This document shows positions 14,442-62,594 of a stretch of 64,000 nucleotides of DNA, piece after piece. The stretch is from Macrolepiota albuminosa (lineage: Eukaryota; Basidiomycota; Agaricomycetes; Agaricales; Agaricaceae): NCBI GenBank assembly GCA_027475525.1, contig JAMWFC010000051.1, positions 62,001-126,000 on the forward strand, given 5' to 3'. The notes below the pieces were generated by a model. It was not told the origin of the DNA. It did no database searches and worked only from the letters and a program-made list of their open reading frames with translations. The translations under genes were made by a program, and so were the position numbers. Every line of letters starts with the position of its first letter. Within the stretch, counting starts at the first letter, position 1.

Positions 14442-14490
14442 GCTGGAAAGATGGGAAGGAAAATATGGGGAGGTGAAGTGCTGAAAACGA

Positions 14491-14498
14491 TTTTTATA
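14491..14498 (-). promoter_or_regulatory. TATA box of element II accessory gene 1
   Basis: On the minus strand TATAAAAA lies about 50 bp before the ATG at 14441. Element V has the same box at the same distance (44862-44868), within a conserved stretch (GCCTTATAAAAAT, then TTTTCAGC). This suggests the antisense gene has its own promoter. Confidence 0.6.
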
Positions 14499-14542
14499 AG
14501 GCGCCGGCGGCATTATATGGACCGTAGCGCAGTCAAATTAAC

Positions 14543-14697
14543 GACGGCGTTTGACTGAGGACAGTCAATTTTTCAGTTGGGGGGAGATGATAGGCTTCTA
14601 CTCGGACTGAGCGCATCAAGACGGTGTTTGACTGAGGACAGTCAATTTTTCAGTTGGGGGGAGATGATAGGCTTCTACTCGGACTGAGCGCATCAAG
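14543..14697. repeat. 77 bp tandem artefact 8
   Basis: Period 77 with one mismatch, over the polypurine tract and LTR start of element II. Confidence 0.87.
14551..14587 (+). promoter_or_regulatory. Conserved hairpin and polypurine tract of element II
   Basis: TTGACTGAGGACAGTCAA (7 bp stem, loop AGGA) at 14551-14568 is followed by CAGTTGGGGGGAGA, the polypurine tract, directly before the LTR start TGATAGG. The block is repeated at 14628-14664 by a 77 bp artefact. The same hairpin and tract occur in elements I, III and V. Confidence 0.75.
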
Positions 14698-15783: not shown

Positions 15784-15787
15784 ACGG
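15784..15787. repeat. TSD of element II, right copy (ACGG)
   Basis: Pairs with 1880-1883. Confidence 0.88.
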
Positions 15788-15898
15788 CCATCAAATATTG
15801 CCAAAATTGGTTAGTTAGCGTGCGCTAAGGTACTCCGAGCCCGTGCCGCGTTGCCGTAGCCTGCCGTTGATGCGCTGATCCTGTATGGGGTCCTATCA
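15788..15898 (-). repeat. Element III 3' LTR, second part
   Basis: It continues the LTR cut at 1883 and ends GGGGTCCTATCA, like the right LTR at 62594. Confidence 0.92.
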
Positions 15899-16068: not shown

Positions 16069-18476
16069 ATGTCCTTCCGTATTCTAACTCCACCCCCCAT
16101 CCCATCTCGCGAGGCTCAAGACGCTGCCTCCGCCTACATCGAAAAGGCAAACAATTTTCTCAAGCAAATCGATGGCGTTGGCGCAGATGCGCCTGTAAAT
16201 TTGGTCGTTGCCGTGATGAAGCTATACGAGCGATGGCTGGAGATGTGCGTTCTTGGCATGGGATGGGATCGCGAAATAGAGGTTCAGGAGTGGTGCTGGT
16301 CACAGTACCTGGATCATCATGGCGCAGAGTGGCTAGCGCCCTTTGCTCGTTTTGTAAGTACCTCCAGTTCTTGCTGTGTCGCTAGCTGATCGAGTTGCCA
16401 GGCACCTCCTCCTGTCCCAACTATTGAGGATGAATTGGAGGACATCCTCTCTGGTGTCTTGCTGATGACGGTAAGCACGCCTGCACCTGAGTAAGTAACT
16501 CTGATCCTGATTTCTGACTTAGCTGTGGTCTGACTTGTCTCCTCATAGCAAACAGGAAGTGCTGGCGCTCTTGGCGTGGATGCAGGTGGAGGAGGAACTT
16601 TCTACTGCCGCCTTCTATGACGCTAAGGAGATTACAAGGATGCTAGAAGAGTGGGCACATGCGCAGGCATTGGCGGAGGAGATGGAGGAGATTGACTGTG
16701 GGAAGGTGCCCATCACCAAGGGACAGGATTTAATTGTGGCGGGATCCAGCAAGGTTTCGTGCACCGGCAGTGCACAGAGCCCAACACTGCTGGCTAGCAG
16801 GAAGGGCTCCCCAGTAAAGCCGGGTAAGGCTTTGAAGAAAGTGAGTTTTTACCTCTTCTTGCCACTGCCGTGCCATGATAACCACTGTTTCCAAGTCTCG
16901 CAAGGGAAAGGCTCCCCAGTACGCGGTAAGTGTTCTTTTTAGACCTAGGCAGTGTTTACCAACCTATGTCTGCAGGTGCTAACGCAGACTATCTTTACCA
17001 ATTCTGAATTGAAGAGTCTGCTGGTGCCGCGCCAGAAAGATGCCGTCCTTGACGAGGGAATAGATGCGGGAGTTGTCTTGCCCAAGATGAAGAACAAGAA
17101 GACTGTTGCGCTCGTGGCAAGGCAAGAATTTAAGGATTCCCAGGGGGCGGTAAGCTTAGCACCTTTTCTGTTACCGTGCTTACTGACTTAGGTACTAGTG
17201 CAACAAATGCTGGGCTGACAACGACCCAGAGGGGTGCTGGTACCCTACTGGCAGTCAGCCCTGCTATTGGTGCGGAACTCTTAAACGAGCTTGTACTCTG
17301 GATGGCGCCAAGAGTTGCGAATGCGGGGGAGCTCCCAATGCGGTAGTGGAACGCACCTTCAAGCGCGCCGTCTTGGTCAAGAAAGCGTGAGAGTTTGTTG
17401 AGGGAGAGAAGAAGAAGAAGGCCACTGGAGACGCAGCAGCAATCAGCAAGAGTTCCCTGGCGCTGCCGACACGTCAAGGGGACAAAAACAAAACTGTTGG
17501 CAACCGTGGCGCCGGTGAGCGCCAAGGGACTATGGTCCCTTTAAAAAGACAAGTCTCTTTGCCTGCTAAGGGGAAGGGCAAGGCCAAACGTGTGTGGGTA
17601 GAGTCTCCTCCCTCTACCCCCGGAGACATGGAGATGGAGGAGCTGAAGAAGGCGCTTGCCGCCAGCTGCCTGCCACCAAGGGACGACAAGGCCGGGCCCA
17701 GCAAGTTGCTTTCCCCCATTTGCCTGAGAGGGGCTTCTCTGCCACTTCCCAATGAGAATGACACGGTAACGGACCTGCTGCCAAGGGAAGAGCCTCAGAA
17801 GGCGGCACCGACGGTGGCGACACCAAGGGGCAAAGGAAGCCCCCCAGCAATGGCGGGTGATGAGGACGTGGATGGGAAAGACGACATGGGTGAAGAAGAC
17901 ACCTTGGTGACCCAGCGCCAAGGCGATGGGGAGGAGACATCGGCAAAGGAGGTGGTAGGAGTTAGCCAGGAGGAGCCTGAGTGGTGGTGGCTACTGCCTT
18001 ATGGTAACGTTGCCCCCTGGGAGGTGTCAGACCCTGAGGACGTTGCCAGGCTGGAACCAAGGCGTCCCGTGATCGCCAGGATCAATCCTGCCTGGACCCC
18101 TCAACCGGAACCGATGGTGACTGGTGACGCTTTCCAGTGGCTGGGGCAGGACCTCGTTTACCCGGTTGTAGCGCTCAATCCTCGCAACATGTTGGAGCGC
18201 TATTCCAGGAGGGCAGCAATGATGGAGGCAACAATGAGTCGGGAGCGGGAACAAGTCCGAGGTCAACTGATGGCGCTGAGGTTGCGTTACTCCAATTTGA
18301 GTCGTAGCCTTCGTGTCCTTCGTGACTACCAGGATGATTGCCAAGCCGCTATGGATTGGCAAACCGCCAACAACATCTTGCTGGGTGATCTTCTGCCTCT
18401 GCGCGACTCCTCTTTGCTGGTACCGCCCGTCCTTGTAAATATATTTTTACCACCTCCTTGCCGAGTGAACGGATAA
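16069..18476 (+). pseudogene. Element III antisense accessory gene (Zn2Cys6-like cluster protein)
   Basis: Six exons: 16069-16353, 16402-16470, 16523-16840, 16896-16925, 16976-17149, 17199-18476. Introns are 48-55 bp with GTAAGT/GTAAGC/GTGAGT donors. Exon 1 encodes a helical domain shared with all accessory proteins (VVAVMKLYERWLE). Exon 6 begins with the cysteine cluster CX2CX8CX8CX2CX6C (17199-17294). It continues with a basic KGKGKAKR tract, an acidic stretch, the conserved WLGQDLVYPVVALNP segment and a coiled coil (about 18180-18370). Defects: an in-frame TGA at 17388-17390 where element I has Arg, and a deletion near 18420 that removes the normal acidic C-terminus and stop. It runs convergently toward the integrase end of pol. 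Confidence 0.82.
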
Positions 18477-21478: not shown

Positions 21479-21602
21479 CCAAATAAGGCTACGTTACCGT
21501 TTTTGTGACAAGTGGCCCTGCGTTCTTGAGATTTGGTTTATAGTCCTGGCATGAGTGTGGACTTCGTTTCTCTCCCATCTTTTCCTGGCTCAATTAAATA
21601 AA

Positions 21603-24004
21603 ATGTCTTTCCGCATTCAACTCCGCCCTGTTCCCTCCCGTGAGGCTCAAGACGCCGCCTCGGCCTATATCGAAAAGGCGAACAATTTCTTAAGCGGATC
21701 GAAGGCGTTGGCGCGGACGCGCCAGTAAATTTGGTGGTTGCCGTCATGAAGCTGTACGAGCGGTGGCTGGAGGTGCGCGTTCTTGGCGTGGGATGGGATC
21801 GCGAAATCGAGGTTCGGGAATGGTGCCGGTCGCGGTACCTGGATCATCGTGGCGCAGAGTGGCTAGCGCCCTATGCTCGATTTGTAAGTAGCTTCTAGTT
21901 CTTGCCGTGTCGCTAGCTGATTGGGTTCCTAGGCGCCTCCTCCTGTCCCCACCATTGAGGACGAGTTGGAGGATATCCTTTCGGGTGCCTTGCCGATGAC
22001 GGTAAGCGCGCCTGCGCCTGAGTAAGTATTCCTAACCCATTCTTTTGACTTAGCTTTGGTCTGACTTGTCGCCCCATAGCAAACAGGAGGTGTTGGCGCC
22101 TCTGGCGCGCATGCAAGTGGCCGAGGAACTGGCGACGCGGCAAGAGGAAGTGTCTCAGGATGCCCGGGAGATCACCAGGGCTCTGGAGGAGCGGGAGCGG
22201 GTCAGGGAGTTGGCGGAGGAGATGGAGGGAGTGGCTGCGGGGAAGGCGCCTGCCGTTGAGAGGCAGGCGGTAGCAGAGGGATCCGGCAAGGTAGGTCGCG
22301 CCGGCAGCACCTTGAGCCCAGTGCTGCCGGCTAGCAAGTCGGGCTCGCCGAGGAAGCCGGCAGGTGCTTCCAAACGCAAGGTAAGTGCTGTTTTTGCTTG
22401 CCGTTGCCGACGGTCGCTAACGACATTTACAGAGTCGCAAGGCGGCTCCTCAATACGCGGTGAGTGGTACTCTTCTTTTTGGCCTGAAATCACTAAGTCA
22501 TTGTAGGCGCCAACACAATCGAGCTTTGACGACAAGGAGCTCAAAGGACTTTTGTTGCCGCGTCGCGAGGAGGCAGTCCTGGATGAGGGGCAGGAGGCCG
22601 GGGTCGTAATGGAGGAAATGAAGGGGAAGAAGACCGTTTCCTTAGCGACACGGCAAGCATTCAAGGAGGCGCGGGGAGCGGTAAGTGACTCTTCTATCTT
22701 TTTGAGCTTTCTCTGACTTATAGCGCTAGTGTGACAAGTGCTGGGCGGATAACGACCCAGAAGGCTGCTGGTTCCCGACTGGGGCCCAGCCTTGCTATTG
22801 CTGTGGTGCCCTCAAGCGCGCTTGCACCATCGACGGGGCCAAAAGTCGCGAGCGTGGCGGCGCGCCAGACGCACTTGTCGAGAAGACATTTTCGCGCGCA
22901 GTTTTGGTGAGGAGGGCCAGGGAGTTTGTGGAGGGCCAGAGGAAGAAGGTCGCTGCCGGTGGTATGGCAGTCGTTGGACGAGCCTCCTTGGCGTTGCCGA
23001 CGCGCCAAGGAGATGGATCAGAAACAGTCGGCAACCGAGGCGCCGGCGAGCGCCAAGGGACTTTGGTCCCAGAAAAACGACAAGCCCCTTCCCCCAGCAA
23101 AGGGAAGGGCAAAGCCAAGCGACCTCGGGTAGTGTCGTCGCCTTCCCCCTCGCCAACCCCTCAAGACATCGAAATGGCCGATCTCGAAAAGGCCTTGGCG
23201 GCGAGTCGCCTGCCTCCTCGCGATTCTGAGGCAGGCCCAAGTGGCCTTCTGTCGCCTATTCATTTGGCGGCGAGGTCCCTTGGTGAGGAGCAGGAGGTAG
23301 GAGAACGGGAAGCGGTTGGCGACTCGGCGCCTCAAGAGGAGCGGGAAGACGCTCCTGCAGACGTCGAGATGGGGGAGGAGAAGGCAGAGGGGGCGGCAAT
23401 GGGAGGGGATGAGGATGCTGAAGGGGAGGTGGATGAAACCTTGGCGACGCAGCGCCAAGGCGACGAGGAGGTGGTAGCGGGAGAGGGCGAGGAAGCGGCA
23501 GGAGTCGCCAGGGAGGAGCCTGAGTGGCGCTGGCTACCTCCCTACAGTAGCGTGGCCCCTTGGGAGGTTTCAGACCCGGAGGACGTTGCCGGTCTGGAGC
23601 CTAGGCGCCCCGTAATCGCCAGGATCAATCCTGCTTGGACGCCTCAACCGCAGCCAACGGTCACAGGCGACGCCTTCAACTGGCTGGGACAAGACCTCGT
23701 GTACCCGGTAGTGGCGCTTAACCCGCGGGAGATGCTGGAGCGGTTTTCGAGGAGGGCGGCAACGATGGAGGCGGCAATGGGGCGAGAACGGGAGCGAGTC
23801 CGAGGGCAGCTCATGGCGCTGAGGTTGCGCTATGCCAACCTTGGTCGTAGCCTTAGCGTCCTTCGCGACTACCAGGCAGATTGCCAAGCCGCCATCGATT
23901 GGCAGGCCGCCAATAACATCTTGCCGGGCGACCTGCTTCCTCTTCGCGACTCTTCGCTGCCGATTTCCGACGACTCCCTGCCGATGGACGATGAGAGCGA
24001 TTAA
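21603..24004 (+). pseudogene. Element I antisense accessory gene (Zn2Cys6-like cluster protein)
   Basis: Six exons: 21603-21883, 21933-22001, 22054-22380, 22433-22459, 22507-22680, 22730-24004 (TAA). Exon sizes parallel element III (69, 174 bp identical). Exon 6 starts with six cysteines CX2CX8CX8CX2CX6C (22730-22825), then a basic KGKGKAKRPR/SPSPSP tract, an acidic low-complexity stretch, and a coiled coil with ERERVRGQLMALRLRY (about 23760-23900), ending in an Asp/Ser-rich tail. The only defect seen is a one-base deletion in exon 1 near 21693, in a patch rich in homopolymer losses, so it may be a sequencing error. Expected product about 717 residues. It lies antisense to pol, tail to tail. 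A zinc-dependent DNA-binding role is inferred only from cysteine spacing. Confidence 0.85.
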
Positions 24005-43700: not shown

Positions 43701-44772
43701 TGATGACGCCAACTGTAGTTGGGTGCGCTGGACGTATACGCAGTACAACGCCGTCTCCAGCGCTTGGCATGCGTAGTTGTGAGGAGTCCTGACAGGGTCC
43801 CGGTGTGCTTGAGTGGAGGTAGTAAAACAATGCACTAGATTATAGCGCTTCGGGGGCTACCTGGCAGACGGTAAGCGTCGTAGTTTAGGCAAAGATATTG
43901 AAGAAAAGACAAATAGCACAGCGTATTGTGCCTGTAGGTGGCACCGTAAACGATGAAGACAAGATAGACAAGGCTAGCGCCCGACTTAGTGATGAAGTCA
44001 AAGGAAGCTAGCGCGAGTTAAACTCTAAGTGTAACTGTGTGTTCGAGGAGTTACAATTCGTTGTTATATACATGTAAAGCAGCTATTTTATATATTATGC
44101 GCTACCGTGTTTGCCAAGATACAAGTCCATCTGCGGCGCTACCTCTTAGCGCCTCTCCTCGTGGTTTCCTCTAACGGCGACCTGTCAACGGCAACCTTTT
44201 GCACATGGCTGACGGCGACCAATGGCGTTATGATCCACGGTGACCAGCGGCAACTCTATATTGACTTAGAATTGTACGAGTCTGCTCACTTTTACTATAA
44301 CTCTGATTGGCCAGGCTGTTCTGGGGTATGGTCAGAAAATCCTCAACAGACGCTGTGAGCGCTAATGTCAGCGCTACTCATTGTATCAGTTCCTGGCAGG
44401 TCCAGATGTCGGATTTAAGTATATCCAGTGCCGCTGTCATTGATCCTTTTAGACTTCTGATTGAAGTGCCTCGTCCAAATGGCAGCGCCTGCTGCTGGCT
44501 CCTTCTGGAAGTGATCGGGGTTTAGTTAGAGTCCTCTCCCGCCGTCATGTTAGCGCTATACACTATGAGCCTCCTTTGTCCTTGGGATAGGTGAATGGAG
44601 TGTGCTGCAGGCTTGGTAGCTAGGGGTTAGGATAAATGTCTAAATCCTGTAGTAGTTTATCGGAGCCAGAGCTGCTCTATATTCCCAACTGGTCGCTAGA
44701 GTCCTGAGTACATCAAGTGTTGGTTGGCCTATAATGTCCCTTGATGCGCTCAGTCTGAGTAGAAGCCTATCA
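43701..44772 (-). repeat. Element V 3' LTR
   Basis: 1072 bp; plus strand starts TGATGACGCCAACTGTAG and ends AGAAGCCTATCA. It is homologous to the element II LTRs in reverse orientation. Confidence 0.93.
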
Positions 44773-44809
44773 TCTCCCTCTGACTGAAAAATTGACTGTC
44801 CTCAGTCAA
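44773..44809 (-). promoter_or_regulatory. Polypurine tract and conserved hairpin of element V
   Basis: On the minus strand TTGACTGAGGACAGTCAA (44809-44792) and CAGAGGGAGA precede the 3' LTR. The block lies about 110 bp before the accessory gene 1 ATG on the plus strand. Confidence 0.72.
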
Positions 44810-44861
44810 ACGCCATCATTAATTTGACTGTGTTACGGTCCGTATGATGCCGCCGGTGCCT

Positions 44862-44868
44862 TATAAAA
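44862..44868 (+). promoter_or_regulatory. TATA box of element V accessory gene 1
   Basis: TATAAAA stands 57 bp before the ATG at 44919, matching 14498-14491 of element II. Confidence 0.6.
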
Positions 44869-44918
44869 ATTGTTTTCAGCACTTCATCTTCTCGTGTTTT
44901 CCTTCCCATCTTTCCAAC

Positions 44919-47433
44919 ATGTCCACTCCTTTCAATGCCTCTGCTCTTCGCAATTTCCTGGCTAAGGCCTTCTATTTATTTGATCGCGCTAAGTCTGTCG
45001 GTCCTGCAGATGCGCCACAAACCGTCTCTGGCATTATGCAACTTTATCGGCGCTGGCTTGTGGTCCGTGGCTCTGACAGTTCCTGGATGCAGGGCATCAA
45101 GGTTTGTGAATGGTGCATGGCTCGGTACCGTGAATATGAGGGTGCCGATTGGTTACTACCGTTCGTGGACTTGTTCGTAAGTTTTTAGGTTTGATTTTTG
45201 GGTTCATGGCGCTAAGGTTCAGCGCCCATACTAGGCTCCTTCTTTATCCGACAAGATTGACGCCCTGCTGGCTAGTACCAAGGTTGGCAAAGTGAGTTTC
45301 CTCCTCTTCTTCCTCACATTTTCCATGTTAACCCTGAGTAGTTGGTTGCTATGTCGCCCACCGCCGCCAGTCTTCCTAGTGCCCCGTCGGCCTCTACCAT
45401 TTCTTCCGCTCCGGCCGCTCCTCCTGTTGCTCCTGTTTCTGTTCTACCTCCTCCCGTTCTTGGTAGTCTTTTTTGTGGCAATGTTTCTCCCGCTCATACT
45501 GCACCCATCGTCGCTTCTCCTACTCGTACTGCGCCTTCTCATTTGGCCATCAAATGGATTGCCGTTACCGCCAGTGAGCCCTGGCCTGGACCTACTTGTA
45601 CTATTTCTTGCCTTCCCCCCTATAACTTCACCGTGGTTATTAATCGTGCGCCCCCTGCTCTCGCTAGCCCTCCTAACCGTACCGTGCGTCCTTGTCTTCT
45701 TGCCTCTAGTTCTTCTACTAACTTTGCTTCTCAGGTCAATCTCCCTGCTCGCGTCACCCCTTTATATGTCGTAAGTGTTTCCTTTTAAGATTGCTTATTT
45801 TTAGTGCCTGATAGAGCCCTCCTTAGGCGCCCAACCAGACTATGTTTACCGACATGGAGCTTCGTGATCTGTTGCGCCTTTGGCGCAACACTACTGTTAT
45901 TGATACCGGCCTCCTGGCTGGTGTCCAAGTACTCAGCGCTAAGAAGAAGGTTACAGTGGCGTCCGTGGAGCGCCGCGCTTTTAGGGCGAAGATTGGCGCA
46001 GTAAGTACTTGTTCGTCCCTGAAAGGTTGATGGCATCGCTAACTTCTTTCTCAGTGCGATAAATGCTGGTCTGAAAACGATCCCAAGGGTTGCTGGTTTC
46101 CTACCGCCTCTCTTCCCTGCTACCGTTGCGATGCGTTGAAATGGGGCTGTGCCTTCAATGAGATTCGTACTCGTGAACGTGGTAGGGACGCCATCATGCA
46201 ACGCAATTACGAGCGCGCAGTCTTAATTTGTAACGCCTGGGCCTTCGTCCTGCAACAACGCGATCTGGCCGCTACTCATCAGCCCACTGTGATTAGCGCT
46301 GCAAGCCTAGCGCTTCCCACCACCCAAGATGGTACCATCATTGCGGCCCCCTTTGCCCGCTCTCCCCATCGTCTCGTCCCTTCAAAATGTAAGCCCATTG
46401 TTGCCTCTCCTAGCAAGAGTCCCGGTAAGCGCCAGGAGCTAGCGTCTGCTACTCCCATGGTCTTGTCTTCTACCAAGTCATCTACTGATGAAGACGAGGA
46501 TACCGAGAGAGATGCTAAGGGCAAGGATGACGATGAGGCTGGGCCTGTAGTCGACACCAATGCGCTATTGGCAGTATGCGCTCTTCTGCTTCGCATTACT
46601 CCCCCTATCACCACTAACCCTTATCAGAGTGGCCCCAGTAGTAATCGGTGCATAGTGTTCGTATTTTCCTGTTTAGGTTGCGCTAACCTCTTTGTCGCCA
46701 GGTCCCCTACTCCCTCACTTCCTGTCGTCGTGAATATCCCTCCCGCCAAAGATGTCATGATGTCGGTTGCCGGCGCTACTCCTGCTCCTGAACCTGTCAC
46801 GGCTAGCGCCTCCTCCATCGCTCTTCCTATTACCCCTTCTCTTACTCCTCCTCGTAGCCTGTCTTCCTTCCCTAGTACTCGTGAGTCCTCCACCGTGCCT
46901 GAGTTTGAAGAGACCTTAGTGGCTCAGGGCGAGCGCCGTCGCCGCTGGAGGTACTTGCCTTCTTATGGCATCCACCTTTCCTCCGCTAGGGCCATGTCCC
47001 CAGGCAATGAGCGCCATGAATGGACCCCACGTGCCTCCGTAACCGTTCGAGTAAGTCTGCATTTCTTAGTCGGTTCGCCCCTTCTCTGACCTCCGCTAAG
47101 TTTAATCCCTTCTGGACTCCTCCCCCCTCCATGCGCGTTTCCGGCAATGCCTACTCTTGGCTTGGAGATGAGTTCTCTTATCCCGTCACTCCCCTTTGCC
47201 CTGCCGCTGATGTTCACCAACAACTCCGCCAGGTCGAGGATGCAACCGATGTCATTGGTCGTGAACTCGCCCTCCTACGTCCTCGTGTCTCCACCTTAGC
47301 GCGCCGTGAGCTCCTCCTGCTTGAGCTCCATGACAATATCACTGATGCGCTTGAGTGGCAAGCGAGTAACACCATTCAGGACAGGAACTTGCTTCCATTG
47401 GGTGATCCCGCTCCCTCCACGTCTGATGCGTAG
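44919..47433 (+). CDS. Element V antisense accessory gene 1, intact (Zn2Cys6-like cluster protein)
   Basis: Six exons: 44919-45176, 45235-45291, 45342-45770, 45827-46000, 46055-47050, 47101-47433 (TAG). They join to 2247 bp, 748 residues, with no stop. Introns are 50-58 bp with GTAAGT or GTGAGT donors and TAG/CAG/AAG acceptors, all in phase 0. Exon 1 is a helical domain (IMQLYRRWLVVRG). Exon 3 is Ser/Pro/Val low complexity. Exon 4 ends in a basic region. Exon 5 starts with the cluster CX2CX8CX8CX2CX6C (46055-46150), then basic and acidic tracts and a WRYLPSYGIHLS segment. Exon 6 is a coiled coil (ELALLRPRVSTLARRELLLL). It is transcribed against gag-pol from its own likely promoter. DNA binding is inferred from the cluster; the activity is unknown. 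It could also be a structural zinc protein. Confidence 0.87.
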
Positions 47434-47960
47434 TCGCCGGCCCGTAGCGCTTTGGACTTTTATGGACTTTTAAAATTTTTGATACGTAGTTTGTGGTAGC
47501 CCTAGCCAAAAATAAACGCTCCCCCCTTTGTTTCGAAATTGTCAGTTTGTAAGTAATCAAAACACAAAGTAAGAAAAAGGGAAAACACTCAGTAAATCAT
47601 CATGGCGTAAAAACCCCTATTACCAGCGCGACCCAATAGCCAATATCACGCCAGCCTAGGAAGAAATAGGTATCGTCTGTAGAAAAATAAGTCGATTCAT
47701 GCAAGAAGTTTTAATGTATAAGAAATAGAGTGCCACTGATCGCTTGTGGTTATTCGGTGATGGTGGCTATAAGCGCTAGATCTCGAAGGTTAACTTCCTC
47801 TTTGTGCGACCTAACATTAGTTCAAGCGCATCCTATTGGTTCGTGTCTGCGTCAGGGTCCAAGCCCCTTGAGAAGTGCCCTCCCATGCTGTCGCTAGTTG
47901 AAACACTGTCCAAGTCCTATAAATTGCCCATGCCTCGACAGCATCTCATCAGTCTTCGCG
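47434..47960. other. Intergenic region between accessory genes 1 and 2 of element V
   Basis: No gene in about 530 bp. At 47578-47616 it carries the conserved block GGGAAAACACTCAGTAAATC followed by ATCATGGC, shared with elements I, II and III. A TATAAATT-like stretch near 47918 could belong to the accessory gene 2 promoter. Confidence 0.5.
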
Positions 47961-48472
47961 ATGGAAAGCCCAACCGGCATCGTGTGGACCCCCCGCTGTG
48001 ATCGCGCTCATGTCATGATTGATCCCCCCACTTTTCTGAAACGCGCTACCTTGTTCTTCCACCACTACCCAGCAGTCGGCGTGCCCGGGCTGACCGACAG
48101 AGTCGTTGAGTTAGGTCGTCGCTGTCAGCTCCTTCGTGCGGCTTGCGAGATTTGGAACGATGAGCTGCTGCTGACCCGATTTGGTATGGAGAAGAACTGG
48201 AGTCAGATTTTTCAGGTGCGCTCTTGCCTTTTTTGCCCTCCTTCTCTTCTGATAGTCTCCAAATCAAGCAAATCGCGACCAAGGAAACAAAAGAATGTCT
48301 TGAGCTGCTGCTGGAGGAGAGTCACTACCTGGTTTGTTACCTTATTACCTCTTTTCTTCCTTCTAACGCATCGCTTCGCTAGGTGCCCCGCTTGTCTACC
48401 AGTGGCCGGCTTTTTTGTGGTCCTGCTGAAGGCTGGAGGCCTCCCAGGCCTCTCCTTCTGCCCGGGCCTTGA
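47961..48472 (+). CDS. Element V antisense accessory gene 2
   Basis: Three exons: 47961-48215, 48269-48331, 48383-48472 (TGA). They join in phase 0 to 135 residues. Introns of 53 and 51 bp use GTGCGC/AAG and GTTTGT/TAG borders; exons 1 and 2 have the same lengths as in element II. The protein starts MESPTGIVWTPRCDRAHV, has a helical core (DPPTFLKRATLFFHHYPAVG, RRCQLLRAACEIW) and ends with RLFCGPAEGW. No known family is recognised. It lies between accessory genes 1 and 3 on the same strand, so the three may be expressed together as an antisense unit. Confidence 0.65.
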
Positions 48473-48711
48473 TGCTCGTCCATCTCCCATGTTGTTTATG
48501 TAAGTCGGCTCCTTCTTTTCCGTGGCGCCATCGGACTGACAGATTTTAGATATTTGATTTCTTTTGTCATAGTTATATGAACTGCATCATTGTTGTTGCC
48601 CCCCCTCGTGATTGTTTTGTGCATGTAAGAATTCTCTAGTATCTGCGACCCTGCAAGTAGCTTGAGGTACTTTATGGGTTCTGGCACGATTAACTCAGTC
48701 AGTATCACCTC

Positions 48712-49374
48712 ATGCCAGTAGTTCCCCTTCTCCTTGATGAGCCCGAACGCCTGTACCGTCCCGCTATACTAGACCGATTAGAACAGTTCCTTGCGCTCAT
48801 GCCTACTGGCGGTTTTCCACATGAGAATGGAAATACGATGACCCTGGTATGCAGGTACCAGATTCTTCTCGCCGCTTCTGAGGAATGGATGATCGACGTC
48901 GACCTATCCATAGTCACCGTACGCCTTCCCTTAGCGCGGGTCGTGAGTAATACTCATGCATTGTGCAGGAGCCGGTTACGGGTAACGCTCTGAGTCTGAC
49001 CAGCCTACTCTGCAAAACGGGAACCTTGGTTAGTTCTTATCTTTTCCTAACCTGAGGTGGTTAACTCCATGATGTCTCTAAGAGTCTCTCCTGGCTCCCC
49101 CTTCTCCCACTCATCAATCTTGATGTGCGTCGGGCTATATTAGCACGCACAGCCTTTCCTTACCCATTGTTTAAGTCCCACCCGGATGAGGACAGGTGGT
49201 ACTCATCCCCAAACCCCTTGGCCGCCCCTCCAGGGAGCGCCCGTGCCTCCTCCTAGCGTTCCTGTTCCTCCTGTTCCCTTTGCTAACGCGCCACCTCCAG
49301 GTGCTCCTCCCACCCGCAGGCGACCTAAAGATCAAGTGAAAGGTCCACGTCGACGGTCTGCATCTTTAGGGTAG
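48712..49374 (+). pseudogene. Element V antisense accessory gene 3
   Basis: ATG at 48712. Exon 1 encodes YRPAILDRLEQFLALMPTGG and CRYQILLAASEEW, homologous to element II 10383-9638. Two introns are likely: one ending in GCAG at about 48969 and one from GTTAGT (about 49029) to AAG before 49083. From 49083 the frame (SLSWLPLLPLINLDVRRAIL) matches element II but meets TAG near 49255. The conserved Pro-rich and Arg-rich C-terminus (RRRPKDQVKGPRRRS, to 49374) is in another frame, so a frameshift or a further intron is needed. Function unknown. Confidence 0.5.
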
Positions 49375-49480
49375 TTCCATTAGGTGCAGTTGTAGTCTAA
49401 TCGCCTGTTCTCTGTATACTAGTACCGCTTGTGTATTTATTCTTTTCTGGATTTTGGGTTGCCTAAGTCTGATCCCCAGG

Positions 49481-49499
49481 GGCGCTAACAGTTAGCGCC
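49481..49499. terminator. Hairpin between convergent accessory 3 and pol genes of element V
   Basis: GGCGCTAACAGTTAGCGCC is a near-perfect palindrome with a 9 bp stem, at the same place as 9529-9547 in element II. Confidence 0.42.
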
Positions 49500-50166
49500 T
49501 CGCGTTTCGTATAAGTTTATTGCTCCTCATCTTCATCCAGAGTGTTCTTGTCATTGTCCACCATCTCAGTCTCTTCCAGCTCTCAAAGCTTGGCAGTGTC
49601 AATGTCCAGCACCGGCAAAGATAGTGGAATATGTTCACGCGCTAAGTAGGGAATGAGTCAAAACGCCGCTACTGGTCAATGCAAAACTGAGCCGTCCAAC
49701 TCGCAGAGTACGTAGGCACCTCCCTTATTGTGGGAAACTACTATGAGGGGTCCTAGGTATTGGGGTCATATCTTTTTGTTGTGGGTGACTTCGATTTTTG
49801 AGTTGCGCATTAGTACTAAAGCGCCAGCTGTAAAGTCGTAGTCTCGGATAGTAGCGCTATGCTCGCTTTCAAATCGTAATGCGGCCTGTCATCTAGCTTG
49901 AAATACTACCTCATGTAGGCGCTCTAGATCCTCCATGCATCTTTGTAAGTCAATGGCACGCCTAGCGATCAGATTGGTAGAGGACAGGATTGAGTTAGGT
50001 GGAGGCTGTAAGTATGTCGCTTCCACAACGTCCGCTGGAAGCAGGGGATGGGTGCCAGTTGCCACGTAGTAAGGAGAACAGCCCATCCTCCTCCATACGG
50101 TAACTTGTTCAGACCAAAAGACCGAATAAGTTGCTTCACTCCATCGACTTTTGTCACTGTCTACCG

Positions 50167-50320
50167 CCTTAAATAGCGCCTGTCGTACGTCAAAATGCGG
50201 CCTTTCCACTATACCGTTAGCGCGTTTATTGTATCCTGAGATTCCTTAAATAGCGCCTGTCGTACGTCAAAATGCGGCCTTTCCACTATACCGTTAGCGC
50301 GTTTATTGTATCCTGAGATT
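50167..50320. repeat. 77 bp tandem artefact 21
   Basis: Period 77, in the integrase of element V. Confidence 0.9.
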
Positions 50321-52858
50321 TGAATATGGTGGATGTTGTATTTCTTAGCGAGGTAGGTAAGCGCCTTAACTATTGGCGCTCCATTGTCTGTAACAATCTC
50401 GTGAAGGGCTCCCCACCTGCAAATAACATCTTCAAAGAGCCACTTAGCTATAGCATTGGTATTTTCCCGCTGGAGCATATGGAACTCCGGCCAATGTACC
50501 AAAGAACACCTTCCCTGGATAATGTACTTGTAGTGCCCTGACTTGGGCATGTGCATAGTGTCGATATATATCTTTCCGAACAAGGGTGCTGAAGTCGCTA
50601 CAGTTGGGGGAATAAGCACCTGGCGCATCTGCTGGATTTGGCAGAGATGACAAGTGCGAATATACCACGCAATATTGGCGCTAACTTGAGGCCACCAAAA
50701 ACGTTCCAATAAATTCGCCCACATCGCATAGAGTCCTCGATGTCCCAAGTCGTCGTGCATAGCGCGCAAAATCCTAACGCGGCCCTCTGGTTTGATTACT
50801 AATTTGTGAGCGCCAGCCCTATTTCGTTGCCAAAGCCGGTTTTCAACCATAAAGAAAGTCGTTGCATATTGAATGAAGGTGGTGTATTCCGTATCTGTCA
50901 GGTCTGATGGTCAGCGCAAATCCTGTAACCATTTCCTAACCTGATCAACTCGTTGGTCTTCTGACTTAGCCTTGGCGCTATGAGGTACCGCCAAATATGG
51001 AAGATTGCGACTATCTTCCCATAAGGGTCTGGGTTCCTCGACTATCTTTAGATCATTATATGGCTTAGCAACGTTATAGATACTGGCCATGTAAAAAGTC
51101 AATGGAGCCTGATACGGTTTAGGTTGATACGGAATGATAGGGTGTAGCCAGGTCGAAATAGGTTGGTCTTTGCAAAGGGCCGAAATAGGCAATTGAATAA
51201 CATGTATGAAACCGTGCAACTGGTCAATCCAGTCATCAAATACGTCATTATCGCTTTTGTCTAGCGCTTTGTCCTCCGGTTGCCTAGGTCGCCTAGATAG
51301 TCCATCAGGTCCGTAAAACGCACTCTTGATGTGCACGAGTTCGAAGTGGAACATTAGTATTACTACTACCCAGCGATTCATACTAGCCGAGGGTTGAATG
51401 TCTGGATTCTGGAGCATTTCTTTGATGTAGCATGCGTCAACTTCGACAATCAGGTTTTGGACCCCAATAAGATACATGCGTAGCGCCTGAAACGCTCAAA
51501 ACAATCCGTATAATTCCAGCTTGGGTTGACTATAGCGTGACTCTCTGTCGTTAAGGGTAATTGATCCGAAGCGATTGTAGTGTCTGATTTTTTGATTTGC
51601 GCAATCACATTGACATAAAAAGAAGCCGACCGCAATGTAAGAGGTGTCAACGGCAAGTATAACAGGATCGGACGTAGTATAGTCAATGGGTACCAATGGC
51701 TTCGCTTCCTGCAGCGCCTTCACTAAATCTTTTTGGGCATTAATTTGGTCGGGTCCGAATTCGAAGGGGACCCCTGAACGGGTTAAGCAATTTAGCACGT
51801 GCGCTCGATGTGAAAAATGGTGTATGAACATGCGCAGCACACCTACCATGCCTAGAAACGCGCAAACTTCTGAGAGGTTATGGCAGACTCCCCACTTTTC
51901 CAGAAGCGCTAATCGGCTCTCCTCAGGTATTCTGCCCTCTGGTGTGCAAACATGCCCTAAAATTTTAAATTGTGGTGCGCAAAGAACCAACTTGTGTCCT
52001 GAGAACGTTCCGCCACAATATTTCATGCGTTGGAGCACCCGGTTAACCAATTGGAAGAAGTCCCATAGTGCCATGCGGATATTAGGATTTTCCGGGTGTA
52101 CTTCGGGCTTGCCATCTACAAGGCGCCAATTTTTTGGGCCCTTAACGCCTACATCGTCAATAAAGCTAAGCACATGGTGGGGTATTTTGGGTTGTAGAAT
52201 AAACGTAATGTCGTCGTGGAATATGGGTACCGAATTAGTCCATCCCATGGGAAGTGTAACCAGTTGTAGCGCTCCGAATGGCGTTTGAAATGTCGTTAAG
52301 TCGTGAGAGGCAGGGTGAATCAAGCACTCGTCATAGCCAACGTACAGATCCAGGGTAGCGCCGCATATTCTTCCTGCAAACGATTCAGCGACGTGATTGG
52401 GGAAGGGCAGTACCCCTGAATGATGAATCATGACTTTGTTTAGCGGCTCCAAACTGTGAACTATACGTAGCTTTCCATTTTTCTTCAGTACACAAAACCA
52501 TCGTGATCGGTATGCCGAATTGGAAGGCTTGTAAACTCCTACCGCTATTTTGGAACGAATAATTTGGCACACTTCAGCTTCAATACCAGGTGGTATAGGT
52601 TGGTTATGCTCGGTCCAAGGTACGTGAGGTATCATCGGTATAGCCACTGGTGGAAAGAAGTCAGTTCTAAGTTTACCGCGTTCGGAATCCTCCCAAGCAA
52701 ATGCTTCATTTTGTTTTCGCATAATGTTGGTTAATACATCTAGTTCCGCCGTTGATAGAAAGCCTGTATCGTGGGTGCTAAGGAATAGCGCCCGTCGTTC
52801 TTCTGTAAATCGTCTGGTAGGCTCGAAGGGTGGCAGGTTCGGATTAAGCTCAGGAAGG

Positions 52859-52863
52859 GTCGC
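52859..52863. repeat. TSD of the solo LTR, left copy (GTCGC)
   Basis: Pairs with 53731-53735. Confidence 0.88.
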
Positions 52864-53730
52864 TGTCAGGTTCCGCTGAGTCGGGGGCTTTCCGGGAAAG
52901 CAACGCCCTTACAATGCGGACTTGACCTACGAATACTCGGGTGTCTGGAACTCCGGGGCTAGGACTCCGGGGCTCAAGACGAGGACAGGGGTAATCCCGG
53001 GAGAGGGGACTAGAGTCCGGAGGTTTTGGGTTGGAGGTAACTGAGAGTTAGAGGGGGTCGAGTCGTGAACTGGAGGTTCTAAGACGAGACCAAGTTAGTA
53101 AATCAAGAGTCGCGAAGTGCGTACCAAAACTTAGAGCACGTGAATACTTAGGCGTGCCAGTCGAAGCGTACCAATCAAGGCGTACCAGTCAAGCAAAGGG
53201 CACGCAATAACCAAAGTAATATCAAGACTAGCGAATACAGCGGAGAACTACACTATAAGTACTACGGATCGTGTCTCGGGATTCCGGGGTGTCTGGGATG
53301 AGTTCCGGGGGTCATTGAGTAGCGGCCAGGGACTGTATACCGGGATCGCGCGTGTGGGGACGCGCGATCAATTGGCGCGGAGGGAGTCGTGATGCGTGGG
53401 GCGTGATGCGTGATGGTCGGATGCGAGCCGCGTGATCCGATCGTTGATGGCGGTTGATCCCGGGGTCCGTGATGCAGGGGTCCCGGGGGGCTGGCTGATG
53501 GCGATCGTTGACGGCTGATGGCGGTCATTGATGCGTGTGATGGCGGCGTCGGCAGCTGTGGGGGCGGGGTGCGCTGTGGGATTGTTGACAGCTGATGGCG
53601 GTCATTGATGCGTGTGATGGCGGCGTCGGCAGCTGTGGGGGCGGGGTGCGCTGTGGGATTGGCGGAAGAGGTTCCCAGGCGGGGCTCCGGGGGTGTCCTG
53701 GGGAGGTTCTGGGGGGGAGGGGTCGTGACA
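52864..53730 (-). repeat. Family C solo LTR
   Basis: On the plus strand it starts TGTCAGGTTCCGC and ends GGGTCGTGACA, the reverse complement of a family C LTR. No internal sequence remains, so LTR-LTR recombination is inferred. It holds one 77 bp artefact (53507-53661) and keeps the self-primer (GTAATATCAAGACTAGC near 53215) and GTACCA/GTGCCA repeats. It is the youngest insertion in its branch, lying in element V, itself inside III and VI. Confidence 0.9.
53507..53661. repeat. 77 bp tandem artefact 22
   Basis: Period 77 with one mismatch, in the solo LTR. Confidence 0.87.
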
Positions 53731-53735
53731 GTCGC
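53731..53735. repeat. TSD of the solo LTR, right copy (GTCGC)
   Basis: Pairs with 52859-52863. Confidence 0.88.
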
Positions 53736-54142
53736 TAACGGGTCTCCAATGATTTTTCTCTCGATGCGAAATTCTTCAGGTACGCCGCTCACTACCGGTT
53801 TCGTTTTAAGCGCTACTGGCTTGTATTTCTTTTTAACCTGAACCCCTTTGTGCTTAGGGGTACTGTTGTTAGCAAACGTATTATAAATGGAACTCTGGTT
53901 TCTAGCGAAACCAAATATCAAAGGTTCTTTAGAATCAGGGGTAGAAACAAAATAAGTGTCTGTCAAAAGATTTTCAGTAATATCGGATGCAGTGAGGTAT
54001 AAGTAGGATAAAGCTTCGCTAGTAAGCGACGTAGAAGTGTTCAAGATTTCAGGGGCTAAAGGGGTATGTGATATAAAGTTTACTTGCCCAGTCCGATGAT
54101 TATAGTCCAAGATAAGCGCTTCATCTCCATGATCCTCATCAC

Positions 54143-56134
54143 TCATCTCCTCGATGGCGCTGGAAAACACTTGCATGGTTTGTCGCTAATGTAAGGTCGC
54201 TTTCTTGGTCCCGGCTTCTGGAACCTTCCTCGAGGAAATGTCGGTACCGTTCTCCTGACTCCAGAATTGGGGTTGCTAATAGTTAGCGTCGTTTCATCCT
54301 CGGACATTGTTTTGACTACTGATCGCGCTAGCACATCGAAGGGCCTCCCCAATAATAAATCGTAGGCTGGCGATCTAAGTATGTGAATTTGCAGATAGAA
54401 CGTAAGATCGCCTATAGCACAGGGCACGTTCCGAGCCATCCCCAAGGATCGATCAATCGTGCCGTTAGCGCTCTGCATGTTAAGAATGATCGTTGGATCG
54501 TAAATGATACCCAGCTCGTTAGCGACGTCGGCAGCCATTGAAATAATTTGTGATCCGCTATCCACGATCGACTCTATTTTGCTTTTCCCATCAACTGTCA
54601 GCATAATTGAGCGAATCGCATGAGAGTCTTGGGCTACAGTTAAGATGGCAGGATTGTCACTAGATCTTAGCGATTTAAGGTAGGTTTCGACCGGGTCAAT
54701 GGACGTGGCTTCTTTAGGCGGTGCGACCTCTTCCTTGGTTTCCAGAGCTGCCATCTCGGTTATATATGCAAAACCAGGCAGCGCATTGTCGCATTCGTCC
54801 ACCGTCGCTACATTGTTAGCTACGTTTCGTCGAGGGGTAACCGCGGTACGCATCTGGTTCCTGACGTCTGGCGCCATGCTGCATAACTCTCCTACCGATA
54901 GCGTAACCTGACTTTGCATGATGCGATCAAAAACTAACTTAGACTTCTCCAGATCATATATAGGCGCTGTGGGTCGATATCCTCCCGTAGGTTTATCTGG
55001 CGCTCTGAAGTTACGATTAAGGGGCGGGGCGTAGTTGCCTCCGAGACCAGCGTAAGAATGTAGCGGTGGCTCTGGAATGGCCGGCGCCTTGGTTGCTTTG
55101 GATACTTTGTCGTTAGCGCTAGAGGTCGAGGCTGGTGCTGAGACGGGGCCTATTATTGCACCCGACGGTCTATAATCCTTTAAAGGCTGCTTGCCCTTTT
55201 TGATCTCCACCCCATCGAAGACCTGATTCTTTAGCGACTTCAGTTCCTTCTCTAGCGTCTCAATCCTCTCTTCACGGGACAGCGTGGGTCAGTCACTGAT
55301 AGCGTTTAGCTGGAGTACTTCGTGAATTAGTGCTTGTTGAGGAGTTGCCTCGGCTTTTTCCAGTTTATTCATGATGTTAGCAACTGCATTGTTAACGGCA
55401 TTCTCCAAATCCTCCTTCTTGACATACCTGTTACGGTCATTGGCAGCGCTAGGCGCTGGCGACTCTAGCTTGGGTGCCATTCCTCCATGGTCCGCACCAG
55501 GTCGCTGTAATGGTATACCCGTATCTGTGCCTTTTAATACCCACTTTCCTGCCTCAAAGACCTTTTCTATGTCATAGGGTTCCTCGGGGTGATGGTCATG
55601 TATAGTGATCTCCAAGCGTCGCGCAATCTTAGTCCATAACGAAGTCAGGAATCCTTGTTGAAACAAGCGGCGCTCCTCGTTCCCATATAATTTCCCATTT
55701 TGGACCAGCCATCTCGCTATCCGTTGGAAATCACGATAATAAGTCGATAACGCTCCTAGAGTATGGATTCCAGCCGCGAAGGTGTCCTGTACTAGCTTCT
55801 GGATTTCCATTACCGTATAACGCGTAGCTTCTTTGGCGCCAGGATATAAATGAATGATAGCCTTTTTCCATTCATCATAGGTAAAAGGCCTGGGCGCTGC
55901 GTCACTAGTAAGTCCTTGGAACTCCTTCAACCCTGTCCATGATTTGGCTGTGTTGTATGAGACGTATCTGGCGGCGTATTCCTTCACCTGTGTATTGTCG
56001 GTCACCCAGCAATTGCGTAGCAGATACTCCAACTCCTTGAAATACTGCGTTAGTTTGCGAGGCTTCGTTTCGTCCCATTTTGGCGACAAGAAGTGGTTTC
56101 GGGGTGGCATGCGCTGATTGTTCGGCTGATCCAT
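54143..56134 (-). pseudogene. gag: Element V gag-protease lacking the zinc knuckle
   Basis: ATG at 56134 (MDQPNNQRMPPRNHF). The capsid region is conserved with element II. At about 55350 an in-frame deletion joins MNKLEK to AEATPQQ, removing roughly 95 residues that in element II contain the CX2CX4HX6C knuckle. A TGA at 55289-55291 stands where element II has CGA. The protease DSGSQIISMA is intact. The 3' end overlaps pol in -1. Confidence 0.87.
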
Positions 56135-56497
56135 ACTGATAGGTGTGTTTGTCAAGGTAGGAAGAGTAGTGGTGCTCATGTTACTTAGCGTCGATGTCGT
56201 AGGTACCGGCTCAGTTGGCTCTGAGTTGCTAGGTTCTGGCGATAATAACCTAGATAACTCTTCTAGAGAAGTCAGCGGCGTATGGTTTTCGCCTGCTAAG
56301 TACTCAAATGGTCGGGAAAAAGGAAAAAAGCTTTCAGCTAAGCTGTCTGGGGCGGCTTCAAGCTCCTGATCCAAAGTCTGTCTCGGTAGCGCGCCTGGTA
56401 AGTGTGGTGAGTTGGTGGTACTTGGTTCAAACGTGCTCTCCAACAGGAGGCGGCGCTGTCGCTGGGCTTGAGTTTCCAGCAGAATTCTGTCTCAGAA
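56135..56497 (-). other. Element V gag leader, open without an ATG
   Basis: The gag frame is open upstream of the ATG and encodes a peptide very close to the element II leader (SPHLPGALPRQTLDQELE). Confidence 0.5.
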
Positions 56498-56519
56498 GAA
56501 CTCCTCGCGGTGGGCTCCA
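56498..56519 (-). promoter_or_regulatory. tRNA-type primer-binding site of element V
   Basis: TGGAGCCCACCGCGAGGAG on the minus strand, three bases after the 5' LTR. Confidence 0.72.
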
Positions 56520-57120
56520 AAATGATGACGCCAACTGTAGTTGGGTGCGCTGGACGTATACGCAGTACAACGCCGTCTCCAGCGCTTGGCGTGCGTAGTT
56601 GTGAGGAGTCCTGACAGGGTCCCGGTGTGCTCAAGTGGAGGTAGTAAAACAATGCGCTAGATTATAGCGCTTTGGAGGCTACCTGGCAGACGGTAAGCGT
56701 CGTAGTTTAGGCAAAGATATTGAAGAAAGGACAAATAGCGCAGCGTATTGTGCCCGTAGGTGGCACTGTAAACGATGAAGACGAGATAGACGAGGCTAGC
56801 GCCCGACTTAGTGACGAAGTCAAAGGAAGCTAGCGTGAGTTGAACGCTAAGTGTAACTGTGTGTTCAAGGGGTTACAATTCGTTGTTATATACGCAGCTA
56901 TTTTATATATTATGCGCTACCGTGTTTGCCAAGATACAAGTCCATCTGCGGCGCTACCTCCTAGCGCCTCTCCTCGTGGTTTTCTCTAACGGCGACCTGT
57001 CAACGGCAATTTTTTGCACATGGCTGACGGCAACCAATGGTGTTATGACCCACGGCGACCAGCGGCAACTCTATATTGACTTAGAATTGTATGAGTCTGC
57101 TCACTTTTACTATAACTCCG

Positions 57121-57274
57121 ATTGGCCAGGCTGTTCTGGGGTATGGTCGGAAAATCCTCAACAGACGCTGTGAGCGCTAATGTCAGCGCTACTCATTATT
57201 GGCCAGGCTGTTCTGGGGTATGGTCGGAAAATCCTCAACAGACGCTGTGAGCGCTAATGTCAGCGCTACTCATT
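57121..57274. repeat. 77 bp tandem artefact 23
   Basis: Period 77, in the right LTR of element V; absent from the left LTR. Confidence 0.9.
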
Positions 57275-57287
57275 GTATCAGTTCCTG

Positions 57288-57442
57288 GCAGGTCCAGATG
57301 TTGGATTTAAGTATATCCAGTGCCGCCGTCATTGATCCTTTTAGACTTCTGATTGAAGTGCCTCGCAGGTCCAGATGTTGGATTTAAGTATATCCAGTGC
57401 CGCCGTCATTGATCCTTTTAGACTTCTGATTGAAGTGCCTCG
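57288..57442. repeat. 77 bp tandem artefact 24
   Basis: Period 77, in the right LTR of element V; absent from the left LTR. Confidence 0.9.
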
Positions 57443-57741
57443 TCCAAATGGCAGCGCCTGCTGCTGGCTCCTTCTGGAAGTAATCGGGGTTTAGTTAGAG
57501 TCCTCTCCCGCCGTCATGTTAGCGCTATACGTTATGAGCCTCCTTTGTCCTTGGGATAGGTGAATGGAGTGTGCTGCAGGCTTGGTAGCTAGGGGTTAGG
57601 ATAAATGTCTAAATCCTGTAGTAGTTTACCGGAGCCAGAGCTGCTCTATATTCCCAACTGGTCGCTAGAGTCCTGAGTATGTCAAGTGTCGGTTGGCCTA
57701 TAATGTTCCTTGATGCGCTCAGTCCAAGTAGAAGCCTATCA

Positions 57742-61664: not shown

Positions 61665-61667
61665 ATT

Positions 61668-62594
61668 TAATGATGCCCAAAGTTTGGTCAGGAACAAATA
61701 TAGTTATAGTGTTACCGTACCAATTGCTTGCGTTGGGCACGCTATAAATAATGTGAGGAGTCCCGGGCAGGTCCCAGAGAACGTGCCTATGAAAATGAGA
61801 AAAAGTCGGTAAGGGGGTCGGCAAGCATAACGCGCTAAGGTAAAGCGCCTATGAAGGGAGCGGTAAGTGAACACGGCAATGTGAGTGGCAAGAGCGCGGT
61901 AAGCTTAGCGAAGTCTAAGCGTCGTAAATGCCTGCCGTAGCTGCAAGGTGTGAATAGGTCAAAAGCTAGCAATAGTCTGCAACTGCCGACGAGCGCGACG
62001 TTGCTGACCGTAAATGAAATCTCGAGTGTAAGGGAGGCTAACAAAAGGGGAGCAGGAAACTCTGGTCTATTGTTCGATGTACAAGTCGGTAAGTACTTTT
62101 ATACTACAATGAGTTCACCGTCGCCAGTGGCCAATGACGCCAAAGTGCGGTAAACTAGAAAATTTTATAGGGGTAGCTCCAACGGTTTCAGATCCCTACC
62201 GTCCATTCAAGAACCTTAGCGACGCCAGGCAGCAGATCGTGAAGCTAAACCATCAATCCATCATCCTTCTGTTTGTCAGAGCACCTAAGCAATGTCAGGC
62301 GCCAGATCGAGGCGCTAAGCGGTGTCAGACGCCAAGGTCAAATGCCAAGCTGTCTGTCAGTTTTTGATAAATCATCAGGCTTCTCGCTAAGCACTGTCGT
62401 CACTGACTGATGCCATCTGTCAATTGTCATTCTGTCTGCCGTCGGCGCTATCACTGATTGGATCTGCTTCTTGCTGTGCACGGCCGTCAAATATTGCCAA
62501 AATTGGTTAGTTAGTGCGCGCTAAGGTACCCCGAGCCCATGCCGCGTTGCCATAGCCTGCCGTTGATGCGCTGATCCTGTATGGGGTCCTATCA
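61668..62594 (-). repeat. Element III 5' LTR
   Basis: 927 bp. The first bases read TAATGATGCCC where element I has TGATGACGCCC. It ends GGGGTCCTATCA. It is the uninterrupted partner of the LTR split by element II. Confidence 0.93.

Follow-up and report, generated by a model that had tools for sequence, protein, structure and literature searches.

The stretch of DNA analysed here, referred to as the window, comprises 64,000 nucleotides of a genome assembly deposited under the name Macrolepiota albuminosa (GCA_027475525.1, contig JAMWFC010000051.1, positions 62,001 to 126,000). The window is a nest of Gypsy elements in which one old element is interrupted by four others, termed I, young, IV and V. 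Element V (43701-57741) is bounded by a 5ʹ long terminal repeat (LTR) at 56523-57741 and a 3ʹ LTR at 43701-44772, both on the minus strand; on the plus strand the 3ʹ LTR reads TGATGACG...CCTATCA, and it aligns with the 5ʹ LTR in three pieces that are 94.7-97.1% identical. The gag-pol region of V is also on the minus strand, within the approximate limits 49547-56522, and a polypurine tract recognised from the sequence (44773-44785, minus strand) adjoins the 3ʹ LTR. Opposite gag-pol, between pol and the 3ʹ LTR and just inside the latter, a spliced gene occupies 44919-47433 on the plus strand. Comparison of copies shows this to be an accessory gene of a large Ty3/Gypsy group, antisense beside the 3ʹ LTR, with its own predicted TATA box, eight exons and seven introns. 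An earlier, sequence-only reading of the window had placed an antisense multi-exon gene at this position, and the proposal is borne out beyond chance by selection, insertions and deletions, and splice sites over 37 loci.

Copies of the gene belong to three families, of which 67 gene-bearing loci were examined in the 100-Mb genome (129 contigs). Families A and B contribute 37 loci, made up of 30 from the genome search (L009 being V), element I, and six loci fetched to sample family A; the third family contributes 30. The TATA box (TTATAAAA, 44861-44868, plus strand), about 50 nt upstream of the ATG, is found in 33 of the 37 A/B loci and is replaced by unrelated sequence in the other four (L026, L031, L036 and L074). 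A 12-mer spanning the LTR edge and the polypurine tract sits 82 nt before the TATA box in 32 of the 37, and the LTR-edge 12-mer is also present upstream of the gene in 29/30 third-family loci. The position of the TATA box and of this 12-mer indicates that the gene is part of the elements and is equipped with a promoter signal of its own, immediately internal to the 3ʹ LTR.

The corrected gene model, obtained by comparing copies, yields a product of 713 residues. All exons are on the plus strand. Exon 1 (44919-45176) encodes an N-terminal helical domain and is followed by exon 2 (45235-45291), a Ser/Pro/Ala-rich linker in exon 3 (45342-45683), a 36-nt mini-exon 4 (45735-45770) and the 174-nt exon 5 (45827-46000). 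Exon 6 (46055-46647) carries a six-cysteine module, CDKCWSENDPKGCWFPTASLPCYRCDALKWGC, and then a helix; exon 7 (46702-47050) leads to exon 8 (47101-47433), with a conserved WLG.....YP segment, a predicted C-terminal coiled coil and the stop codon TAG. About 78 nt past the stop, AATAAA (47511-47516, plus strand) is a candidate poly(A) signal. A six-exon model with a 748-residue product, the form in which the gene had been read from V alone, has GT-AG borders and is open in V, but it missed two introns that carry in-frame stops elsewhere and was rejected. The first added intron (45684-45734, plus strand, 51 nt; GT in 35/37 loci, AG in 37/37) has an in-frame TAG at its 3ʹ splice site in many copies. 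The second (46648-46701, plus strand, 54 nt; GT and AG each in 37/37) has a branch-site-like GCTAAC, with the in-frame TAA of the examined family-A copies; a single TAA was reported in most copies at 75-78% identity in a whole-genome search and is this intronic codon in those examined. Both added introns are multiples of three and are open in V by accident.

Splice-site conservation varies from intron to intron: of the 37 A/B loci, 32-37 retain the 5ʹ GT and 34-37 the 3ʹ AG. GT-to-AT donor changes occur in L022, L027, L031 and L034 (intron 45771-45826) and in L015 and L024 (intron 45684-45734). Many differences between copies give the uncounted impression of CpG decay and are compatible with methylation-linked mutation. 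Insertions and deletions were counted in 31 of the 37 loci, leaving out the reference L009 and the disrupted or badly aligned L026, L031, L036, L037 and L074. Exons showed 38 that are multiples of three, 11 of other lengths and 9 of exactly 77 nt, whereas in the seven introns only 1 of 80 was a multiple of three and 79 were not; these counts are not of independent events, as the loci share ancestry. In the gene region, the gag-pol strand has no open stretch longer than 145 codons, whereas the antisense strand has one of 348 that reads through the second added intron.

Substitutions also argue for a protein product. Set against each other, open copies of families A and B (42 pairs) gave a nonsynonymous divergence (dN) of 0.089, a synonymous divergence (dS) of 0.733 and a dN/dS of 0.12 (0.09-0.18). 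This comparison used three of the six fetched family-A loci (L071 was unused; L073 and L074 are not open) and 14 open B loci, and so favours intact copies; as in the other dN/dS counts, alignment columns absent from V were ignored. Exon by exon, the A-to-B ratio is lowest in the cysteine exon (exon 6, 0.06) and highest in the linker exons (0.35 in exon 3 and 0.52 over the 36 nt of exon 4); it is 0.15, 0.08, 0.09, 0.09 and 0.11 in exons 1, 2, 5, 7 and 8, respectively. Within the 14 B loci, 89 of 91 pairs gave a median of 0.21 and a maximum of 0.70. In the third family the median was 0.088 (0.05-0.13) over 360 of 378 pairs, those with dS above 0.03, from 28 open copies of the 30 loci. When 31 copies including broken ones were compared under the older six-exon model, 461 of 465 pairs gave a median of 0.26 (0.11-0.89). 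The spacer 3ʹ of the gene, read as codons for control, gave 0.56. In gag-pol, used as a yardstick between elements I and V, three open arms gave 0.05, 0.08 and 0.08, and the longest gave 1.6 and 3.0 in wrong frames; the remaining two of the five arms, one of which starts in the LTR, lack an open frame (best ratios 0.24 and 0.32) and were dropped. Constraint on the antisense gene is thus near that on pol (0.05-0.08). Together, these substitution patterns indicate that purifying selection acts on the protein itself and that the protein matters to the elements. A dN/dS near 1 had been named beforehand as one outcome that would speak against the gene; with 0.12 between families and 0.088 within the third family, the proposal that the elements encode their own protein from a spliced antisense gene is supported.

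The gene recurs in other elements of the window, as the sequence-only reading had also held. It lies between pol and the 3ʹ LTR, on the opposite strand, in elements I, young and V. The copy in element I (11846-14441, minus strand, limits approximate) is interrupted by a premature stop in exon 1 and, in exon 3, by a 77-nt duplication; that in the young element (21600-24004, plus strand, start approximate) has an apparent frameshift in exon 1; and the cysteine exon of the same gene is found in the oldest element at 17199-18476 on the plus strand. All four copies have the spacing CX2CX8CX8CX2CX6C, at 13226 (minus) in I, 17199 (plus) in the old element, 22730 (plus) in the young element and 46055 (plus) in V. 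The sequence-only reading assigned a six-cysteine gene to three families of the window; this holds for these four copies, but the motif of its "family C" is that of another gene, carried by another Gypsy element and described below. In the genome, the cysteine exon of V has at least 123 matches, V included, and the third-family exon at least 99, the window's own included. The third-family protein, represented by locus L040, follows the same plan, with a helical-domain exon 1, a mini-exon (27 nt, at the same place as exon 4 of V), a 174-nt exon like that of V and an exon beginning at the first cysteine; the third family is without the last two introns of V.

The V protein is 33% identical to the third-family protein and 30-32% identical to two Termitomyces proteins, P0001 and P0002, and the segment CDKCW..NDP..CW.PT...PC.RC.ALK..C is almost invariant among the four. 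A conserved-core query of the protein database retrieved relatives exclusively from Termitomyces (39/39, query included), in five strains and with no precomputed Pfam domain; a profile from the four-protein alignment gave P0001 alone, probably because the list of candidates was filled by low-complexity words. Since all these relatives are from Termitomyces, the genome is probably that of a Termitomyces or of a close relative. The exact cysteine spacing is present in 22 of the 39; in the rest, a cysteine is apparently gone, the protein truncated or the exon omitted from the annotation.

Within the genome, none of the 67 loci has lost any of the six cysteines or their spacing; this covers the 37 A/B loci, one of which has a stop within the block, and the 30 loci of the third family. 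Gal4-type Zn2Cys6 clusters have the spacing CX2CX6CX5-12CX2CX6-8C, the formula on which the sequence-only reading had called the protein Zn2Cys6-like, and basic residues between their second and third cysteines contact DNA. The module here resembles PF00172 in having six cysteines ending in CX2CX6C, a proline before the fourth cysteine and a helix past the cluster. However, it departs from Zn2Cys6 in its first loop, which has eight residues instead of six, of which zero or one is basic in the four sequences counted; the loop is acidic or neutral, whereas PF00172 members of the same genome have one rich in arginine and lysine. PF00172 gave no match at E≤1 to exon pieces of V and I or to four full proteins, nor at E≤10 to seven cysteine cores, for which only chance-level matches appeared (Anti-TRAP, E 0.22, two cores; bpX5, E 0.14, one core); the same hidden Markov model matched at 21 other places in the genome. 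Membership among recognised Zn2Cys6 proteins was rejected on the absence of a PF00172 match, the X8/X8 spacing and the non-basic first loop. Profile comparison with eight PF00172 stretches taken from this genome yielded a probability of 9% and a single-comparison E of 0.0036 over 19 columns, in the second half only; this faint similarity is not dismissed and may reflect a distant relation to PF00172.

No Pfam domain matched the four proteins at E≤1, hence neither PF04195 nor bZIP, and NCBIfam gave one chance-level match, in one of the four (E 0.093). Sequence searches of solved structures found no relative (best E 1.4 and 1.2), and neither did a fold search (best E 1.4), which used a low-confidence model and has little weight. 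The AlphaFold2 model of P0001 has a mean per-residue confidence (pLDDT) of 59.7 and long helices at residues 128-188, 347-387 and 541-603 that are confident over much of their length; these resemble coiled coils, in keeping with the coiled coil proposed from the letters, and the last of them backs the coiled coil predicted in exon 8. The helix at 347-387 comes after the cluster, with block pLDDT of 68-94 from residue 361 in this single-chain model, and the model of the V cysteine exon has a helix at 45-73. A coiled coil soon after the cluster, as in Zn2Cys6 proteins, is thus predicted by modelling. Past the cluster, 10 of the 22 relatives with the exact motif have a pattern like a bipartite nuclear localisation signal (NLS), which in six of the ten (P0003, P0009, P0019, P0025, P0030 and P0033) lies in a basic tract rather than in a helix.

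Only gag-pol-sense RNA is copied in retrotransposition. In that RNA the introns of the antisense gene would read CT...AC, would go unspliced and so would survive each round. Since the introns are without splice signals in the gag-pol-sense RNA, antisense orientation probably lets an intron-rich gene persist in a retroelement. The best guess at the role of the protein, one that could go either way, is that it is a nuclear trans-acting regulator of the same elements. It would enter the nucleus and oligomerise through its coiled coils; its metal-binding-type cysteine module would contact chromatin or a host factor; and the protein would act in trans on the same elements, regulating their sense transcription or their survival, a role likened to that of HBZ of human T-cell leukemia virus type 1 (HTLV-1) and to the one proposed for plant antisense open reading frames (ORFs). 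This proposal draws on the gene structure, purifying selection, orthology across families with shared intron sites, the LTR bounds and target duplications, the Termitomyces relatives, the long helices and the NLS-like pattern.

Several results pull the other way. In both AlphaFold2 models (P0001 and the V exon) most of the cluster has a pLDDT below 50, and no zinc fold was predicted with confidence. The NLS-like pattern is absent from 12 of the 22 relatives, and no known domain was matched in Pfam or NCBIfam, so that the regulatory role rests on analogy. Just 18 of the 37 loci are open through all exons with no change of frame, and in four of them a splice donor has changed from GT to AT. The spacer control is 0.56 rather than 1, and the introns of I and B copies have diverged by 0.37-0.43, less than dS (0.67-0.87; dN 0.10-0.18); set against the introns, dN is therefore about a quarter to under half, not an eighth. 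The presence of constraint is not in doubt, but its strength is less certain than 0.12 suggests. Moreover, V compared with seven other B copies listed gives a dN/dS of 0.28-0.69, and the V copy looks relaxed, apparently no longer under full constraint.

Other roles have been weighed against that of a nuclear regulator. The protein could be a silencing antagonist that counters host DNA methylation, heterochromatin or RNA interference and so keeps the elements active. The high copy number, over a hundred, speaks for this, and CpG-to-TpG-like differences, for instance GTGC in place of GCGC in the target duplication of V, would be compatible with methylation by the host, as would an uncounted impression of changes from arginine to histidine, cysteine, tryptophan or glutamine among copies. 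It is nonetheless unlikely, given that no known domain matches and that the slow evolution of the cysteine exon (0.06) is unlike that of an arms-race protein. A particle, packaging or integration-targeting factor, acting together with Gag or integrase either in the cytoplasm or during integration, has a similarly low probability. Constraint similar to that on pol fits such a factor, and the helical N-terminal domain and the long helices, as modelled, would suit assembly; on the other hand, a separate gene with its own TATA box uncouples the amount of protein from that of Gag. Two of the three insertions of this element group with a readable target duplication have GCGC, which might point to targeting, but GCGC is common in the window (511 seen versus 321 expected from base composition), so that the preference is weak and just a hint.

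Two further explanations are less credible still. One is that the elements carry, as a passenger, a host gene captured recently, or that another transposon is nested in them. This would account for introns that suggest an ordinary nuclear gene as ancestor; it is very improbable, because the TATA box is at a constant 82 nt from the LTR edge in 32 of 37 loci, the introns are common to diverged families, purifying selection is long-term and relatives exist in five Termitomyces strains. That the antisense RNA rather than a protein is the functional product is close to refuted: antisense RNAs of retroelements have been discussed as regulators in the part of the literature consulted (PMC7264820), but codon-level selection and frame-keeping insertions and deletions need a protein. 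The nuclear regulator remains the preferred reading. The fuller proposal, in which the Gypsy elements of Termitomyces carry a new family of self-encoded nuclear regulators, with introns stabilised by orientation, a six-cysteine metal-binding module of new fold and coiled coils, joined in families A and B by another spliced antisense gene, is offered tentatively, as possible yet doubtful.

To our knowledge, no function has been established for the antisense genes that LTR retrotransposons are known to carry. Among those already known is a fungal one, brtn of the Boty element, which was reportedly described by Zhao et al. in 2011. What the present gene adds is an eight-exon structure checked in many copies, a six-cysteine protein family without a described domain, a basidiomycete host and a neighbouring second spliced antisense gene. 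In the sections available of the relevant papers, plant Gypsy elements are described with antisense ORFs termed aORF-3R, including gene23 of maize Grande, those of rice RIRE2 and the Retand ORF of Silene with TRP28/PF04195; Grande gene23 is preceded by a promoter of its own and encodes a nuclear product, and a regulatory role has been proposed for these ORFs (PMC7264820, PMC11963269). Like the gene here, the plant ORFs lie antisense between pol and the 3ʹ LTR, and they occur in most copies. However, they are described as ORFs, the word "intron" occurring zero times in the main texts of PMC7264820 and PMC11963269, whereas the gene here has eight exons and a six-cysteine module; the PF04195 domain of Retand TRP28 has no match in the four proteins at E≤1. 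Boty-like elements of Botrytis cinerea, as described second-hand, are likewise fungal Gypsy elements with an additional antisense gene, brtn, although Boty is an element of an ascomycete (PMC7264820, PMC8365987, PMC4227169); brtn runs counter to the remark in the sequence-only reading that it knew of no description of such an antisense gene in fungal Ty3 elements. Outside the Gypsy elements, the consulted portion of PMC10186651 presents HBZ as a dimerising nuclear regulator and HBZ of HTLV-1 and the APH proteins as antisense, spliced and near the 3ʹ LTR, as is the gene here. HBZ has a bZIP domain, for which the four proteins gave no match at E≤1; the TATA box here is inside the element rather than in the LTR, and there is no evidence of common descent. 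In the titles and abstracts of the open-licence literature searched, neither this gene nor any antisense gene in elements of Termitomyces or other basidiomycetes was described.

With over a hundred copies, many of them open, and relatives in several sequenced strains, two questions can be put to the test: whether retroelements other than retroviruses make regulators that act in trans, and whether an antisense orientation is the general route by which intron-bearing genes persist in elements that replicate through RNA. A family of self-encoded nuclear regulators, if real, would mean that a retrovirus-like regulatory gene set evolved independently in fungi.

The surrounding nest can be read from its LTRs and target duplications. 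The oldest Gypsy element spans 1067-62594, with LTRs at 1067-1883 plus 15784-15898 and at 61667-62594, and hosts I, young, IV and V. Element I (1884-15783) is inserted inside its left LTR, with a 4-bp target duplication ACGG/ACGG. The young element, at about 20.34-31.85 kb, has a main LTR match 99.5% identical and the duplication GCGC/GCGC (20339-20342/31850-31853), and element IV, at about 32.36-43.17 kb, has CACAA/CACAA. Element V has the 4-bp duplication GCGC/GTGC (43697-43700/57742-57745), and its empty target site is visible uninterrupted in the young element near 26.95 kb. In gag-pol of V, pieces of the aspartic protease and RNase H were matched and the reverse transcriptase fell under the cut-off of Pfam; the H2C2 integrase was matched by Pfam in elements I and young.

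Perfect 77-nt tandem duplications occur at 21 places in the window between 4821 and 57441 (e.g., 4821, 6106, 6766, 13710, 43502, 50167 and 57121), two of them in the 5ʹ LTR of V, and 46 were found in fetched loci totalling 291 kb, a set that includes two loci overlapping the window; perfect tandem duplications of 11 other lengths tried were absent from the window. They are most likely unmerged overlaps of an assembly graph with k=77, and, as 77 is not a multiple of three, they disrupt reading frames artificially. One, at 50167, is at the pol end of V, so the breaks in gag and pol of V, noted in the sequence-only reading, may partly be an assembly artefact.

Two further antisense genes were found in the window. 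Beyond the gene described above, element V has a second antisense spliced gene on the plus strand, with exon 1 at 47961-48215, a TATA-like CTATAAAT near 47916 and an extent to about 49200. In 27 of the 30 B-type loci its exon 1 gave a ratio of nonsynonymous to synonymous differences per site (pN/pS) of 0.21, versus 0.56 in the spacer, with the donor GT in 27/27, and a counterpart is present in element I near 11250-10000 (minus strand). Homology between the N-terminal domains of the two antisense genes is weak (14 of 62 positions identical, single-comparison E 0.021) and is not claimed. The other is the different six-cysteine gene mentioned above, with the motif CX2CX6CX15CX2CX6C at 42068 and 62774, both on the minus strand and the former antisense to gag-pol of element IV. 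It occupies 42695-41208 in element IV and 62910-62600 (minus strand), looks unrelated and belongs to a different Gypsy clade; the reverse transcriptase of element IV matches RVT_1 at 3.8e-42, and two open pieces of the antisense gene of IV gave no Pfam match. With at least 155 genome matches, this gene is a separate case, convergent or very distant.

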